Shown one piece after another: positions 2,580 through 13,208 of a stretch of 48,003 nt of DNA. The stretch covers positions 1-48,003 of IMG/VR virus record IMGVR_UViG_3300022822_000030. One strand, written 5' to 3'. Position 1 is the stretch's first letter. Each line of letters opens with the position of its first letter. The translations under genes and the position numbers were made by a program. Below the pieces are notes generated by a model, which searched no databases, had not been told where the DNA came from, and saw only the letters and a program-made list of their open reading frames with translations. This DNA comes from a virus.

Positions 2580-3674
2580 TTAAACTTTTAGTCCCGCAAG
2601 CCTGCGGATGTCAAATATTTCAGCAGTTTTTTCTTCACTGCTAAATTGTTGTGCCTGATGTTTATTGCCTGTAATTTCTTTGCCTTCGGTCAATGCTTTC
2701 TTGGCCGGAGTTCCACCATTCATTACTGCTGGTAGATACTTGTCAAAAGCTGCATTTAGCTTATCTGTTTGTACTGACTCTAATAGTTGGCTCATTACTG
2801 AACGCTTATCACCACCTAATGGTCCTAACAACTCGCCTATAACTGCTGTGCGCTTTGCGGATTCTTTAATGATTCTTAATTCAGTTTTATTGCTTTCTAC
2901 TAATTTTTCTGTTTCTGCAACAATCTTTGCTGCTTCTTCTAATTCCATTTCTTTCTGTGCAACTACCTTTAACAGGCGTGCAGTTTCAGATTTTTCATTT
3001 AGATGACTTGCAGCAAACTCGCTTGCGAATGATTCAAAAATTCTGCGACCAAAGTCGTTTCTGCGAGCAGAGTTGATATCTTCTTTCAACTGAGTCATTT
3101 CAGATTTCAATCCCTTAGAGACTGTTTCTTCAATGATTTGTGCTGAACGAGCGATGAAATCTTTCCTGACAGCTTCAAACTTAACTCTACTATCACGTAC
3201 TAGACGTACTTTAGTTTCAGCTAAATCTTTCTTGTCGCTGTGGAATTCTGCGATTTCTTTCGCTAGTGAGTCCACAATAAAAGACTCTAATTTTTCAACG
3301 TTGCCTGCAACTGCGTTACGGTCTTCGTGTAATTCTGCAATTTCTTTGCGTAGATTATTTAAGATAAATGATTCCATAGTGGCCGCATCATCTTTCATTT
3401 TTCTAGCGTATTTTGCACGGGCTTCGATAAGTCCTTGACGGTCTTCAGCAAGTTCTGTTAGCTCTGCGGTTAAGCGATCAGCTAACATTCCTTCAACAGC
3501 TTCAACCATTGCGGTTTTATCGTGCGCATATTTCTGCGCAAATTCTTCACGTAGTGTAGCAGTGACTTGATCACGAGATTCTTGAATCTGCGTATTCCAA
3601 GCAGTTTCAATCTCCGATTTGATGTCCTCGGAAATCACATTGTTTTCAAATAATTGTTTAACGAAATCTAGCAT
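2580..3674 (-). CDS. 22: prohead core scaffolding protein gp22
   Basis: The 364-residue product is almost entirely charged helix, as expected of the major scaffold around which gp23 assembles. T4 gp22 is 269 residues, so this is enlarged. Residues 100-119 and 129-148 form a 29-residue-period repeat (ESFI...L.KEIAE.H.D), with a more distant copy at 64-79. Towards the C-terminus, residues 290-313 (KRSVMSQLLES...DKYLP) are the conserved gp22 tail. The segment MSQLLES is identical to the first seven residues of gp23. It lies between gp21 and gp23, in T4 order, with short spacers and AGGAG-type ribosome sites. It should be degraded by gp21 during head maturation. Confidence 0.93.
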   Translation of the reverse strand: MLDFVKQLFENNVISEDIKSEIETAWNTQIQESRDQVTATLREEFAQKYAHDKTAMVEAVEGMLADRLTAELTELAEDRQGLIEARAKYARKMKDDAATMESFILNNLRKEIAELHEDRNAVAGNVEKLESFIVDSLAKEIAEFHSDKKDLAETKVRLVRDSRVKFEAVRKDFIARSAQIIEETVSKGLKSEMTQLKEDINSARRNDFGRRIFESFASEFAASHLNEKSETARLLKVVAQKEMELEEAAKIVAETEKLVESNKTELRIIKESAKRTAVIGELLGPLGGDKRSVMSQLLESVQTDKLNAAFDKYLPAVMNGGTPAKKALTEGKEITGNKHQAQQFSSEEKTAEIFDIRRLAGLKV

Positions 3675-7827: not shown

Positions 7828-10416
7828 TTAGACGCTGGCAAATAAGTCACCGCTCAATCCTTGCTGCACTGTAAGCTGTCTATCTTGAACATCTTTCATG
7901 TTCATATTTACTTTTATTAACTGCTCCAACTTAGTATTTAAGCTAGCAAGTAATGATTCTGCTGATTCTTGAGTAGGTGCCGCAGCAGTAGCAGCGCCTC
8001 CTGAGTTCTTCATCTCTGCTTTGTCTGCTTTAGCTTTAACTTCAGCTTCTTTTTTATTTTCAATATCTTTCTTTCCGGCTTCAGCTGTAGACATACCGCC
8101 TGATTTTGGTCCTCCGGCAATTGCTACTTCAGATTTCAACAAGTCTAAACTATTGTTTGTATTAAAATTAGTCTTTGCTTGTGCTGCCTCGGCTTTATCG
8201 TTTTCAACACCAATTTTCTTAGTATGACTATCTTTTAGTCCAATAAGTTTTTTATCTATTTCAGTTTTCTTTTGCTCTCTGGCTTCTTTCTTTGTTTCAC
8301 TGCTTCGTTCGTTAGCTACCCCTTTTCTTTCTGCATCTCTAACTTTTTCTTTTTCGTCTAATGCTTGTCGTTCAGCTGCTACTTCTTGTTGTTTAAGTTT
8401 AACTGCTTTATTTGCATCACCAAATGTAATTTTATCAAGTACTGCTAAAAATCCGTCTTGCAACAATAGAAAGAATCGTTTTAAATTATCTCCGACTGCA
8501 TCAAGTGCTGTGCTAAATGACCAACCAGTATCATAGAGCTGTTTAAATCCTGCAATAAGTGCAACAACACCTGCAACTATACCAATAATTGGAAGAGTAA
8601 GCAAAGATAGTGCCGTTGTGGCTAAAAAGGATGCTGCAGATTGTGCTAGAGTTGCGGCTGTCGTTATAGCTAGATAGCCTCCATATATTGCTAATGCTGT
8701 ACCTAATCCCAAAAATATTGGCATCAGATTATCAGCAATAAATGTTCCTATACGTTCAAACATAGGCATTACATAGGTGCCTATTAGATTAGCAATGTCG
8801 TTAAACACGGGTACAACATAGTCGTTAATAGCTGATGCCATTAGTTGCAACACTGGAACAATATCTACCAACACAAATGCTGCCAAAGTTAGGAAAGCTG
8901 GGTACAGGCTATCTCTAATAAAGTTTCCAATACTTTCAAATATTGGTTTTAAATTTGTTACAAGATACATACCAACTTGTGTAATAATATCGCTAAAAAT
9001 CATAAAGGCAGGTAACACATAAGTTGTTACTAGATCGGCAACAATTTTAAATGCTCCCATTAATACATCAAGCATACCACTTCCAGCTAATGCCATTGAA
9101 AAAGCGTTTCCAATTTCTGCAAGACTTTGCTGAAACTTTTGCATCTTCTCATTCATCTTGTCAGTGTTCTTTGCAGCTTCGCCCTGTTGTTCCCCTGCTT
9201 TCTTCACACCGTCTGTGGCAATTTGGTAAGTGGCTGCAAGTGCATTAGTGGTTCCTGCAAGACTAGCATCGGCTGCTGCTGCACTTTTAATATTTTTTAG
9301 ATTCTTTGCACCCTCTTCCTTCATTTTATTGTTAAGAGCGTTACGTTCTGCATCAGTAACCGCTTCACCACGCTGCATCTTCTGTTGCATAGTAGTTAAC
9401 ATAGCCGCCGACTGAGGCAATTGCGCTAACAACTTTTGATTCTCTTCAGTAGTTGCTGTACCGTTGGCCAACATATCTTTGGTAAAGTTCTGCAACGGTT
9501 CTGGCAATCCGAGAACAGTATTTCTAAAAGACTTTTGTACTTCTTCGTTCTGTCCAGCCATTGCTGCTTGGAACTGTGCATCTTTAGCCAGTGTTGCTGC
9601 TTGTGCTTCTTTAGCAGAACGTTCTTCGCCGGTAATCTTTGCAAGGCCGTCCATCTCTTTTAGATATGTCCTTGCACCTTGTGCTAGTTGAGCATTAGTC
9701 TTACCGCCAGACAACCCTTGGCTTCTTAATAACGCACCATATCGAATAAGACCGCCATTAATTTCTTGACTACTCATACCTAGTGCATATAACTCCGAAC
9801 TAGTTGACCGTACTGATTTTGAAACTTGTGCAAAGTTTTTAGCACCATCTTCGGTAGTTGTACCAAAGGCCATCAAGCCGGCACCGTTATTTTTAATTAA
9901 TGATCCAAATTCTGCCATGTTCATGCCAGCTTGAGATGCTGATGCAGAGAAACTAGCCATGCTTCCACCGAAACTTGCTCCGCCGCCTGCGGCATTTACA
10001 AATGATTTAGTAACTCTATCAGCTGCGCCAGCAACTGCTCCAAATGCTCCACCTACTAGGCCGCCCACAATTGGTAACTGTTTAAATATATCAGCTGCAT
10101 CTGTAATTGAACCATCTAACTGAGCGAACTGGCTAACAGTGCTGGTTAGTTTATTACCTAGAGTAAAGAACCCTCCAACAACACTACTGATACCAACTGT
10201 TAGTCTTTTAAAATGATCAGTGCTAGCTTTCCGGTTACCGTTATCTTCTTTCTGATTTTTATTTCGATCTCTCTGATTCTTTTCGTCGTCTTTATTACCT
10301 TTTCCACCTTTCATTCCCTTAATAGCACTGACTAACTCTCGTAAGGTGGCTTCAGACGCTGCATTCTTAGCTTCTACATTTCCTATGCCTGGTATATCAA
10401 TTGTTACTGATGCCAT
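7828..10416 (-). CDS. tail tape-measure-like protein
   Basis: The 862-residue product has the make-up of a tape measure protein. Residues about 40-65 are a very charged, lysine-rich linker, 90-400 are Gly/Ala/Ser-rich helix, 430-650 are strongly hydrophobic, and 660-800 form a charged coiled coil. Between residues about 488 and 568 a 15-residue unit starting with proline repeats five times (for example PVFNDIANLIGTYVM, PMFERIGTFIADNLM). The C-terminus (LEQLIKVNMNMKDVQ...LSGDLFASV) looks like an ordinary virion protein tail. T4 uses gp29 (590) for this job; sequence similarity to gp29 is not evident. The gene is first in the leftward late operon and is divergent from the gp26-like gene, which fits tail tube assembly. 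Confidence 0.7.
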   Translation of the reverse strand: MASVTIDIPGIGNVEAKNAASEATLRELVSAIKGMKGGKGNKDDEKNQRDRNKNQKEDNGNRKASTDHFKRLTVGISSVVGGFFTLGNKLTSTVSQFAQLDGSITDAADIFKQLPIVGGLVGGAFGAVAGAADRVTKSFVNAAGGGASFGGSMASFSASASQAGMNMAEFGSLIKNNGAGLMAFGTTTEDGAKNFAQVSKSVRSTSSELYALGMSSQEINGGLIRYGALLRSQGLSGGKTNAQLAQGARTYLKEMDGLAKITGEERSAKEAQAATLAKDAQFQAAMAGQNEEVQKSFRNTVLGLPEPLQNFTKDMLANGTATTEENQKLLAQLPQSAAMLTTMQQKMQRGEAVTDAERNALNNKMKEEGAKNLKNIKSAAAADASLAGTTNALAATYQIATDGVKKAGEQQGEAAKNTDKMNEKMQKFQQSLAEIGNAFSMALAGSGMLDVLMGAFKIVADLVTTYVLPAFMIFSDIITQVGMYLVTNLKPIFESIGNFIRDSLYPAFLTLAAFVLVDIVPVLQLMASAINDYVVPVFNDIANLIGTYVMPMFERIGTFIADNLMPIFLGLGTALAIYGGYLAITTAATLAQSAASFLATTALSLLTLPIIGIVAGVVALIAGFKQLYDTGWSFSTALDAVGDNLKRFFLLLQDGFLAVLDKITFGDANKAVKLKQQEVAAERQALDEKEKVRDAERKGVANERSSETKKEAREQKKTEIDKKLIGLKDSHTKKIGVENDKAEAAQAKTNFNTNNSLDLLKSEVAIAGGPKSGGMSTAEAGKKDIENKKEAEVKAKADKAEMKNSGGAATAAAPTQESAESLLASLNTKLEQLIKVNMNMKDVQDRQLTVQQGLSGDLFASV

Positions 10417-10442
10417 TAAATAAATTCCTGGTAAACTGCGTA

Positions 10443-10450
10443 CATAAATA
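10443..10450 (+). promoter_or_regulatory. T4-type late promoter for gp26-like gene (CATAAATA)
   Basis: CATAAATA is one mismatch from TATAAATA. At T4 spacing, transcription would start near 10456, giving a leader of about 29 nt with GGAG at 10475-10478 before the ATG at 10485. Confidence 0.65.
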
Positions 10451-10466
10451 CGTTATAACACTATTG

Positions 10467-10474
10467 TATTTATC
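10467..10474 (-). promoter_or_regulatory. T4-type late promoter for the head/tape-measure operon (GATAAATA)
   Basis: Minus-strand GATAAATA is one mismatch from TATAAATA. Transcription would start near 10461 and run left through the tape measure, portal, core and capsid genes to the terminator at 1350-1373. It faces the plus-strand late promoter at 10443, so the two start sites fall within about 5 bp and the transcripts overlap. Confidence 0.65.
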
Positions 10475-10484
10475 GGAGAAAAAT

Positions 10485-11351
10485 ATGAATCAAAATGTAA
10501 ATATACCGCAAACGCCAAAATTAAATCCTTTGGCTAATTGGTATAGACAGCCTAAAATCTATGTGAGATTGCCTAGTCAAGGTCGATTCTATCCCCCAGG
10601 TGCATTAGACGTTAGTGCAAACGAAGAATATCCTGTATACTCAATGACTGCCAAAGACGAGTTAATGTTTAAAACTCCTGATGCACTGTTAAGCGGGCAA
10701 AGTACAGTTGAAGTTATTAAAAGTTGTATTCCTGCTATTTTAGATCCCTGGGCAATGCCCAGTATTGATCTAGACTTTGCACTCATTGCTATCCGCATCG
10801 CTACCTACGGCGAAAACATGGAAGTTAGAGTAGACTGTCCACATTGCAAAGAAGAAAATACCTACGATATCAACCTGTCAGACTGGATTGGTATCTTTAG
10901 CCAATTTACTTACAATTCAATTGTAGAAGCTGGGCCGCTAAACGTGCATGTGAGACCTTACAACTATAAAGAAGTTACAAAAGCATCAATTAAAACACTA
11001 GAGCAACAGAAGATCTTTGGCATTATTAACAATGAAGAAATCAGCGATGAGCTAAAGTTAGAAAAGTTTGGTGAAAGTTTTGTTAGACTAACTGAACTCA
11101 CTGTTGATATTATTGCAGATTGCATTACACATATTGAAACACCAGACGGATCCACTGACGATAAAGTTCAGATCAAAGACTTTATTAATAATTCATCTAA
11201 AGATGTGTTTGAAGCTATCCAAATACACATTACTAAAATTAAAGATACTATAGAGTTTAAAGCAAAAGATGTCCAATGCGGAGACTGTCATAAGGAGTTC
11301 TTACTACCTGTGACAATGGACCAATCAAATTTTTTCGCAGTAAAATCTTAA
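10485..11351 (+). CDS. 26: gp26-like baseplate hub/tail assembly protein, zinc-ribbon type
   Basis: The frame is open from an upstream ATG at 10401, but ATG 10485 is chosen because GGAG precedes it by 6-7 nt and the late promoter lies between the two. The 288-residue product resembles the T4 gp26 family (T4_baseplate, PF12322): RQPKIYVRLPSQGRFY (21-36), then an all-helical middle. Two CxxC pairs, Cys118/Cys121 (CPHC) and Cys265/Cys268 (CGDC), suggest a zinc ribbon. The gene ends in SNFFAVKS, encoded over A AAT TTT TTC, a -1 slip site leading into the following 67-codon ORF. T4 gp26 (208 residues) is a hub component. The neighbouring divergent tape measure gene suggests a role in tail assembly. 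Confidence 0.85.
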   Translation: MNQNVNIPQTPKLNPLANWYRQPKIYVRLPSQGRFYPPGALDVSANEEYPVYSMTAKDELMFKTPDALLSGQSTVEVIKSCIPAILDPWAMPSIDLDFALIAIRIATYGENMEVRVDCPHCKEENTYDINLSDWIGIFSQFTYNSIVEAGPLNVHVRPYNYKEVTKASIKTLEQQKIFGIINNEEISDELKLEKFGESFVRLTELTVDIIADCITHIETPDGSTDDKVQIKDFINNSSKDVFEAIQIHITKIKDTIEFKAKDVQCGDCHKEFLLPVTMDQSNFFAVKS

Positions 11352-11375
11352 ACAGCCCTTTGCCGGAGATTTTAC
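11327..11375 (+). promoter_or_regulatory. programmed -1 ribosomal frameshift signal
   Basis: Two overlapping canonical heptamers in the gp26-like frame, A AAT TTT (11327-11333) and T TTT TTC (11330-11336), are followed after 6 nt by a perfect 9-bp inverted repeat: GTAAAATCT (11340-11348) and AGATTTTAC (11367-11375). The zero-frame stop (11349-11351) lies in the loop. The loop segment CCCTT (11356-11360) could also pair with AAGGG (11405-11409) to make a pseudoknot. A slip would give a 359-residue fusion. The stem is AT-rich, so its strength is uncertain. Confidence 0.7.
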
Positions 11376-11563
11376 AGATAGCCAAACGGATGGAGTCTGA
11401 GGTTAAGGGAATCAAGAAAGACGTTCTCAAAATGTGTTGGTACATGAGAGGTCTTTCTTATAGTGAAGGCATGAATCTAAGTCATGATGAAAGAGAAATT
11501 GTTGCTGAGATTATTAAAGAAAACTTAGAGACTACAAAGAAAACTAACTTACCTTTCTTTTAA
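11360..11563 (+). CDS. -1 frame extension of the gp26-like gene (ORF67)
   Basis: This short ORF begins with a TTG (11360) that has no ribosome site, yet the frame is open further upstream through the slippery site at 11327-11336. It lies exactly in the -1 frame of the gp26-like gene. Read as a frameshift product, it adds 75 residues after NFF, starting RSKILNSPLPEILQ. The extension is helical and contains KMCWYMRGLSY, DEREIVAEIIKENLETTKK and a C-terminal LPFF. Such helical extensions made by frameshifting are typical of tail assembly chaperones encoded next to tape measure genes. Separate initiation at TTG or at the internal ATG at 11390 is possible but weakly supported. A bidirectional terminator follows. 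Confidence 0.7.
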   Translation: MPEILQIAKRMESEVKGIKKDVLKMCWYMRGLSYSEGMNLSHDEREIVAEIIKENLETTKKTNLPFF

Positions 11564-11568
11564 TCATA

Positions 11569-11595
11569 AAAAAGCCTGCTTAAAGCAGGCTTTTT
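11569..11595. terminator. bidirectional terminator between convergent genes
   Basis: AAAAAGCCTGCT pairs perfectly with AGCAGGCTTTTT (12 bp) around a 3-nt loop, with T runs in both directions. It lies between the ends of the convergent ORF67 and the 188-residue gene and can serve both. Confidence 0.92.
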
Positions 11596-11609
11596 GTTGG
11601 CTGTATATA

Positions 11610-12176
11610 TTACTTTTGACGGAACAATGTAAAGCCTTCGGCAACTACTTTACCGCTATTAACTTTACTTTGAGTCTGCATAGCTGGTTGAGCTGGTTGA
11701 GCTGCTGCTCTGCCAGTAACTCTAACTGGATTTTTGCGTACAGGAGCCGGCGCTGTCATTGAAGTTTGTAGCATAGCAAGAATTTTCTGTTTCTCGCTAG
11801 GCTTTAAAGTGGCAATGGCCTGCTGTGCTTGTTTGTACCCAGATGCTGCTGCCATTGGTGCTGCGTTCTTAGGAGCTGCTTTCTTAGGAGCTGCTTTCTT
11901 AGGAGCCGTAACTTTAGCATATTCATCGTCATATGCTTTTTTCACAGCTGGATCTTGTTCTGCATCTGGTTCTGCATCTGGAACATCACCTGCAATGTTT
12001 GCAGTAGAAGTAGCTTTACCTTTTTGGTACGCTTTCTTAACGCCACCTGCAATGCCGCCAATCATACCAACGCCTTTAGCAACCCCGCCAATGCCCTTAG
12101 CTAGTCCACGACCAATAGCACCTAACGGTCCTTCTTCAAGTTCTTGTGATTCAGTTAAGATTTCAGTTAGTCGCAT
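11610..12176 (-). CDS. basic Ala/Lys/Pro-rich protein, candidate internal head protein
   Basis: The 188-residue product starts MRLTEILTESQELEEGPLG, which holds two possible gp21 cleavage sites (ILTE/S at residues 6-10 and LEE/G at 13-16). This resembles the cleaved capsid-targeting peptides of T4 internal proteins. A Gly-rich helix follows, then a histone-H1-like segment (residues about 90-107) with repeats of AAPKK encoded by three near-identical 15-bp units (plus-strand positions about 11870-11910). A Pro/Ala/Arg-rich tail ends in EGFTLFRQK. The composition suggests DNA binding in the head. It has its own late promoter (12226-12233) and the shared terminator at 11569-11595. The family is not recognised; the role is inferred. 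Confidence 0.6.
   Translation of the reverse strand: MRLTEILTESQELEEGPLGAIGRGLAKGIGGVAKGVGMIGGIAGGVKKAYQKGKATSTANIAGDVPDAEPDAEQDPAVKKAYDDEYAKVTAPKKAAPKKAAPKNAAPMAAASGYKQAQQAIATLKPSEKQKILAMLQTSMTAPAPVRKNPVRVTGRAAAQPAQPAMQTQSKVNSGKVVAEGFTLFRQK
11868..11910 (+). repeat. 15-bp tandem repeat inside the basic protein gene
   Basis: Nearly three copies of TTCTTAGGAGCTGCT lie head to tail (plus-strand reading). They encode the APKKA units of the minus-strand basic protein and could expand or shrink by slippage. Confidence 0.75.
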
Positions 12177-12773: not shown

Positions 12774-13208
12774 TTAAATTTTGGGTTTTTTGAGGATATG
12801 TGAGCCGTGAACTCGAACCTGTATGTGACCGTTGTACCAGTCAGTAGATTCTAGAACTTTGTGTTTAAATTGTTCTCTTGCCTCGATGTAGCTGCATTCT
12901 GATTTGTTTTTGCAGTAAAATAGAATTTCTCTGGTGAAGTTATTTTTGCCTAAAGTCTTAATATCTGCTGTAAGCGCATCGCTAGAACCATAATAGTCCT
13001 TCCAATCGCTTTCAATCTTGCCTCTAATTTTCTTTTTTTTCTTAGTGCCGTTCTTAAGTGTAACTGTTTTATAAGTTGTTTTTGCGAACTTTGCTAGTTT
13101 TTTGCCTATATACTTGCGCCCAGAGATGACATTGGTAATAAGATATACGAAACCGATATAATCTTCGGAGATTGCAGTAATTTCTTTCTTCTTATAGTAC
13201 CATGTCAT
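12774..13208 (-). CDS. GIY-YIG family endonuclease, probably free-standing homing type
   Basis: The 144-residue protein carries the GIY-YIG signature as GFVYLITN (19-26) and RKYIGKK (31-37). A later DYYGSS (71-76) is followed by the catalytic glutamate candidate Glu109 in CSYIEARE. A lysine-rich insert (about 50-65) lies between the two halves. T4 phages carry free-standing Seg nucleases of this type, and similar small ones occur in many T4-like phages. The start codon overlaps the previous stop codon in an ATGA arrangement, so it is co-translated with the gp47-gp46 early operon. It borders the structured non-coding region at its 3' side. Substrate is unknown; it could also be a repair-type nuclease. 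Confidence 0.82.
   Translation of the reverse strand: MTWYYKKKEITAISEDYIGFVYLITNVISGRKYIGKKLAKFAKTTYKTVTLKNGTKKKKKIRGKIESDWKDYYGSSDALTADIKTLGKNNFTREILFYCKNKSECSYIEAREQFKHKVLESTDWYNGHIQVRVHGSHILKKPKI

Follow-up and report, generated by a model that had tools for sequence, protein, structure and literature searches.

The stretch of DNA analysed here, referred to as the window, is a virus record of 48,003 bases which carries T4-type genes, stems from a marine T4-related phage and is probably a fragment. It encodes a portal protein belonging to PHROG 213. The gene under study resembles gp26 of phage T4. Its predicted protein matches PF12322 ('T4 bacteriophage base plate protein', E = 4e-17) in Pfam and PHROG 150 (baseplate hub) in the PHROGs collection. 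The start codon is preceded by GGAG at positions 10475-10478, and CATAAATA, located further upstream at 10443-10450, is presumably one base off the T4 late promoter consensus. The features of the locus are as follows:

7828 to 10416, minus strand: candidate (inferred) tape measure gene, 862 residues, divergent from and adjoining the gp26-like gene
10485 to 11351, plus strand: gp26-like gene, short form (TAC-N; TAC, tail assembly chaperone), 288 residues, start ATG, stop at 11349-11351
11327 to 11333, plus strand: slip heptamer A AAT TTT, in phase with the gp26 frame
11330 to 11336, plus strand: slip heptamer T TTT TTC, in phase with the gp26 frame and overlapping A AAT TTT
11336 to 11563, plus strand: -1 frame extension, 75 residues plus stop (11561-11563), giving a long form (TAC-NC) of 359 residues
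11340 to 11375, plus strand: stem-loop of 10 pairs, 11340-11349 pairing with 11366-11375
11569 to 11595, plus strand: hairpin with A- and U-tracts, likely transcription terminator, directly 3' of the extension stop

The hairpin behind the extension folds at -19.3 kcal/mol (z -4.99), and this strong structure together with its U-tract suggests that the transcript probably ends just past the extension; a consensus scan of 10300-11700 reported no terminator-like site, at this hairpin included. The divergent 862-residue neighbour had no match in Pfam or PHROGs and showed weak BLASTP similarity to its positional counterparts in PA5oct (E 0.006) and RaK2 (E 0.014), and is considered a candidate tape measure protein. 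The window holds one PF12322 gene; neither a second one nor a second copy of the -1 extension was found in it, and since the window is probably a fragment, the single copy says nothing on the whole genome.

The gp26-like gene ends in AAT TTT TTC GCA GTA AAA TCT TAA. Two overlapping, canonical slip heptamers had been proposed here in the initial annotation, and both are indeed present in phase, at residues 282-284 of the 288. Slippage on either heptamer would yield the identical product (...NFF-RSK...). To put these motifs in proportion, in-phase heptamers were counted across 16,227 codon positions, taken from the 35 ORFs that reach 100 codons or more when all six frames of the window are read. 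T TTT TTC was seen twice, A AAT TTT eight times and the general pattern X XXY YYZ 61 times. The combined 10-mer turned up a single time, at the end of the gp26-like gene. A lone heptamer carries little weight, and the claim is carried by what the related sequences have conserved. The related loci used for the window lineage were the best 80 of 359, which are 59-100% identical to the window protein; together with the window, and leaving out L001, which is the window itself, they comprise 69 distinct sequences. T TTT TTC is in phase in all of these 80 loci and both heptamers are in phase in 79 of them. The sole locus of the 80 without A AAT TTT (L047) has an Asn to Asp change and keeps T TTT TTC.

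A codon alignment of the 69 distinct genes (from the best 80 of 359) contains 109 conserved degenerate columns. Only three of these are free of synonymous change, and these three are the slip codons: Asn is AAT in 68 of 68, the first Phe TTT in 69 of 69 and the second Phe TTC in 69 of 69 distinct genes of this set. Elsewhere in the same genes AAT and AAC are used in a ratio of 510:406 and TTT and TTC in a ratio of 683:138. The third base of the Ser, Ala or Thr codon preceding the slip is A in 68 of the 69 distinct genes, compared to 35% elsewhere. This wobble base would otherwise be free, and its being held as A suggests that the A AAT TTT heptamer, too, is under constraint.

The initial annotation had also described a perfect 9-bp hairpin starting 6 nt past the first heptamer. 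The position proved correct, and the nine pairs are extended by one G-U pair to ten; the spacer is 6 nt from A AAT TTT and 3 nt from T TTT TTC. In the window the stem has an energy of -10 kcal/mol (z -2.49), and 3 of 200 shuffled sequences fold equally well. Pairing was counted in 50 distinct 53-nt segments out of the 69 sequences (from the best 80 of 359). The ten pairs form in 92.8% of the 500 cells, and sliding the partner strand along gives a pairing of at most 51.8%. Both sides are changed in 27 cells of four pairs (shuffled mean 8.5), and the covariation score is 0.206 vs 0.131, with none of 500 shuffles, which ignore relatedness, scoring as high. Pair 18-45, for example, is G-C in 32 segments and A-U in 17. 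The number of further pair types in the stem, nine, is not above that of shuffles (205 of 500 reach nine). Each of the four outer pairs fails to form in 7 to 11 of the 50 sequences, and RNAalifold on the same alignment gave a consensus of four pairs only, at -0.38 kcal/mol. In L047, which has T TTT TTC only, the two outermost pairs are lost, placing the stem 5 nt past that heptamer. That the spacing follows the slip used is only a hint from this one sequence. The covarying stem is a defined element for reporter tests. Slippery heptamer, spacer and stimulatory structure, the components of a programmed -1 frameshift, are thus all present at the gp26 end, and the sequences make a -1 frameshift the very likely mechanism.

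The -1 frame is open from 11336 across the gp26 stop, and both the 75 codons and the 359-residue fusion (284 gp26 residues through NFF plus 75) given in the initial annotation are correct. Three sequences (L038, L056 and L070) reach the contig end before the extension stop and were dropped, leaving 66 complete distinct sequences for the count of start codons. The extension is 75 codons long in 62 of these and 76 codons in the other four. For counts by codon position the four 76-codon extensions were left out as well and codons 15-74 of 62 sequences were used. This constant length counts as evidence; the absence of stops in the 62 is true by construction. Differences by codon position in the -1 frame number 24808, 14564 and 54088, and single changes over sequence pairs are 31723 synonymous vs 10743 non-synonymous, a ratio which is reversed in the other two frames. 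By these substitution patterns, the -1 extension evolves as a protein. An AlphaFold2 model of the extension is helical and confident (pLDDT 89.6), and in the model predicted for the short form the C-terminal eight residues have little order. An ordered extension behind a disordered tail of the short form would place the slip at a domain border. Pfam and PHROGs scans of the extension returned nothing.

An extension with its own coding constraint could also be a small gene in its own right, with termination-reinitiation or a weak internal start driving its translation. As had been noted before, it has no usable start of its own in the window: the TTG at 11360 is not preceded by a Shine-Dalgarno sequence, relatives vary at this Leu codon, and there is no ATG at the gp26 stop. 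An ATG upstream of the conserved MRG core is absent in 30 of the 66 extensions, and ATG, GTG and TTG are all absent in 11. In 16 of the 66 the core is preceded by a start codon of some kind that has a Shine-Dalgarno match of four bases or more, which speaks for a separate gene in a part of the lineage, but an ATG with such a match is found in only seven, at differing positions. No start codon is conserved for the extension in these 66 sequences (from the best 80 of 359), and on these start-codon and Shine-Dalgarno counts we rejected, as unlikely for the window lineage, a downstream gene that is initiated independently. Outside this lineage an ATG overlaps the gp26 stop in Phosso, Atu_ph07, 121Q, KVP40, phiM12 and Cr30, and a separate small gene is annotated in Phosso, Vibrio 2.275.O, 121Q, RAS14 and XacN1; all of the latter five have an in-phase slip. 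A separate gene needs neither an invariant T TTT TTC nor a frame that is open from the slip codon onward, both of which the distinct sequences show, and we regard this explanation as improbable, although it is the strongest of the alternatives to a ribosomal frameshift.

A comparison with relatives had been suggested in the initial annotation, and heptamer, stem and -1 ORF all turned out to be conserved; among the relatives examined, none encodes the downstream frame as an independent gene without a slip site. Searches with gp26 of Phosso, S-PM2 and 121Q gave 84 loci (1, 80 and 3, respectively), S-PM2 and 121Q themselves among them, which amount to 65 distinct genes; the S-PM2 loci are the best 80 of 276. 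All 84 loci (80 of them being the best 80 of 276) carry T TTT TTC in phase close to the gp26 stop and, behind it, a -1 extension, which the contig end cuts in one of them. Among named phages, an in-phase T run (T TTT TTN) with an open -1 frame was found in 15, namely P-SSM2, S-PM2, HTVC008M, KVP40, phiM12, Cr30, phiW-14, Phosso, Atu_ph07, PA5oct, Vibrio 2.275.O, 121Q, RaK2, RAS14 and XacN1; vB_Pa-PAC2 differs little from PA5oct in this sequence. Three of 19 named phages do not fit: T4, Campylobacter phage CPt10 and Rhodothermus phage RM378. The surroundings were inspected for 9 of 62 matching phage records, and ten further named phages, including T4, were hand-picked and are not a sample. In RM378 (L112, around 2020-2243) a run of seven T precedes the stop of the gp26-family gene, and beyond that stop the +1 frame stays open for some 67 codons, the -1 frame being closed; a +1 or -2 frameshift is possible there. 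The number of PF12322 copies in 15 records, some of which are fragments, is two in T4 and CPt10 and one in the other 13, including RM378.

At nine annotated jumbo-phage loci the extension is listed as a separate gene in five, cut short in one and unannotated in three. The Atu_ph07 record (L084) carries an annotated 40-residue ORF inside the extension at 3430-3552, and the public annotations of PA5oct (L086) and RaK2 (L089) list nothing at the extension. Fold z-scores of the named phages are the best of four window lengths per phage and so are flattering. In HTVC008M and RaK2 no notable structure was found in the stretches folded 3' of the slip (best z -0.33 and -0.83, respectively). Long stems around an inner hairpin lie just past the slip in Atu_ph07 (L084; GGCTCTTTGT/ACAAAGAGCC, z -6.32, best of four windows) and in Phosso (L083; GGCTCTTG/CAAGAGCC, z -3.86, best of four windows). 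GGAG, GAGG or AGGA occurs upstream of the slip in 44 of 62 distinct S-PM2-type sequences (from the best 80 of 276) and in none of the 69 window-lineage genes (from the best 80 of 359), for which a slightly wider stretch was searched. The window lineage, having no Shine-Dalgarno-like element, seems to rely on the stem.

Transcriptional slippage is known for A/T runs, and RNA polymerase slipping on the T run could give a mixed mRNA from which the long form is made without any shift by the ribosome. The 16 sequences folded have runs of 6 to 8 T, which is compatible with such slippage, but the run is only six T long in 11 of them and is ended by C in all 69 window-lineage genes (from the best 80 of 359). 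The covarying stem and the upstream Shine-Dalgarno-like element of S-PM2-type sequences (44 of 62) fit stimulation of a ribosome rather than slippage of a polymerase, which we judge marginally less probable even than a separate gene. That the slip and the -1 frame are remnants of a broken in-frame fusion, such as T4 gp51 with the N-terminal part of the family and the C-terminal domain in one frame might bring to mind, or a sequencing error, is contradicted by the recurrence of the same arrangement in many contigs and isolates with purifying selection on both parts, and hardly merits consideration.

Programmed -1 frameshifting by the ribosome being the preferred mechanism, the identity of the protein pair can be addressed. 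PF12322 covers the window protein as well as T4 gp26 and T4 gp51, placing the window protein in the same Pfam family as both, and BLASTP links the two T4 proteins to one another (E 2e-6). Vladimirov, Gautam and Davidson are said to have identified chaperone genes of T4-like phages in 2022 and to have proposed a mechanism other than frameshifting; we take these chaperones to be gp26 and gp51. The tail assembly chaperone function of the frameshift pair had not been recognised in the initial annotation. Structure comparisons of the predicted gp26-like protein gave no match to solved structures at E ≤ 0.001 (none below 0.86), and those of the extension model nothing below E 6.0; when sequences of solved structures were searched by profile, the one match was at chance level (E 0.46). 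Among predicted viral proteins 41 matched at E ≤ 0.001, the best named ones being baseplate hub and hub assembly proteins.

The extensions were compared using hhalign with alignments of 1 to 66 sequences, so that all values are rough. The window extension clearly matches those of Phosso and Atu_ph07 (probability 98.9%) and those of Vibrio 2.275.O, 121Q, RaK2 and PA5oct (97%). Its comparison with the cyanophage extensions is not significant (1.4%, E 0.038), and no profile match to the C-terminus of T4 gp51 was obtained (E 0.39). The extensions of cyanophages and other T4 relatives do match T4 gp51 (85%) and CPt10 (96%). T4 has two separate genes, gp51 with the C-terminal part in frame and gp26 without a slip, whereas the window has one gene with a slip. 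We are confident, on sequence evidence, that the window gene is a TAC of the T4 gp26/gp51 family whose short and long forms arise via a -1 slip, and the two products are very probably the short and long chaperone pair of long-tailed phages. This suggests that the gene annotated as 'baseplate hub' is better named tail assembly chaperone.

In phage lambda the slip sequence is GGGAAAG. The window differs from lambda in its slip sequence, in the covarying stem 3' of the slip and in the divergent orientation of the candidate tape measure neighbour. According to PMC5009743, lambda gpG and the minority product gpGT attach to the tape measure protein, and gpGT contacts the tail tube subunit through its T part. 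The window shares with that system a short protein with a minority -1 extension, a slip site close to where the first gene ends and a tail assembly gene (PMC5009743), and the kind of arrangement is already known from lambda G/GT. Most ribosomes would stop at 11351 and produce the short form of 288 residues. A minority would slip back one base on AAATTTTTTC, aided by the stem-loop just downstream, and continue to 11563, giving the long form of 359 residues, whose C-terminal domain is helical. If the pair works like gpG/gpGT, many short and few long copies would coat the tape measure protein, the added C-terminal domain would recruit tail tube subunits, and both forms would depart before the virion is completed. 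Slipping itself, its rate and the chaperone action are inferred, the last of these by analogy.

The same source describes the G-T frameshift as widely conserved among long-tailed phages and names T4 as an exception (PMC5009743). The sequences indicate that many T4 relatives, marine phages included, use a frameshift of the G-T type, and on this basis the T4 exception looks lineage-specific. The window gene resembles gp26 of the Kyanoviridae (S-PM2, P-SSM2) in the in-phase T TTT TTC, the -1 extension and the downstream stem, and differs from S-PM2-type sequences, which often have GGAG, GAGG or AGGA before the slip. A TAC frameshift is also described, in PMC12846349, for the Pakpunavirus Adele and the Andersonviridae. 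As in the window, a poly-T slip lies at the end of TAC-N and the open -1 frame is conserved family-wide; unlike the window, these phages belong to another phage family and use the motif GTTTTT, and the likeness is one of arrangement and not of protein comparison (PMC12846349).

PF12322 is taken as the TAC family of T4-like phages on the basis of the title of Vladimirov et al. 2022, the papers citing it and our own reading. Two of these citing papers are relevant here. PRFect (PMC10885494) cites Vladimirov for some T4-like phages having one short and one longer, fused gene and no frameshifting, and PMC12846349 cites Vladimirov for poly-T frameshift signals in the TAC-N genes of T4-like phages. 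Poly-T slips in T4-like chaperones may already have been reported by Vladimirov et al. 2022, and a prior description of the slip in T4 relatives is possible; the part of the open literature searched contained no detailed account of gp26 frameshifting. We lean towards the view that frameshifting is ancestral in the whole T4 superfamily and that the two genes of T4 are a derived duplication which replaced it. One slip sequence would have been kept while its helper changed: the stem alone with an added, overlapping A AAT TTT in the window lineage, a Shine-Dalgarno-like element with a stem in kyanoviruses, and another frame in RM378.

Downstream of the frameshift cassette and convergent with it lies a gene for a 188-residue protein (11610-12176, minus strand) with repeated stretches of the KKAAPKKAAP type, for which there was no PHROG match and a Pfam match at chance level only. 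Two large ORFs of the window resemble gp46 and gp47 as judged by eye. Near these genes a 144-residue protein is encoded (12774-13208, minus strand), which has PHROG 447 (labelled NAD synthetase) as its top match and weaker matches to homing endonuclease families.
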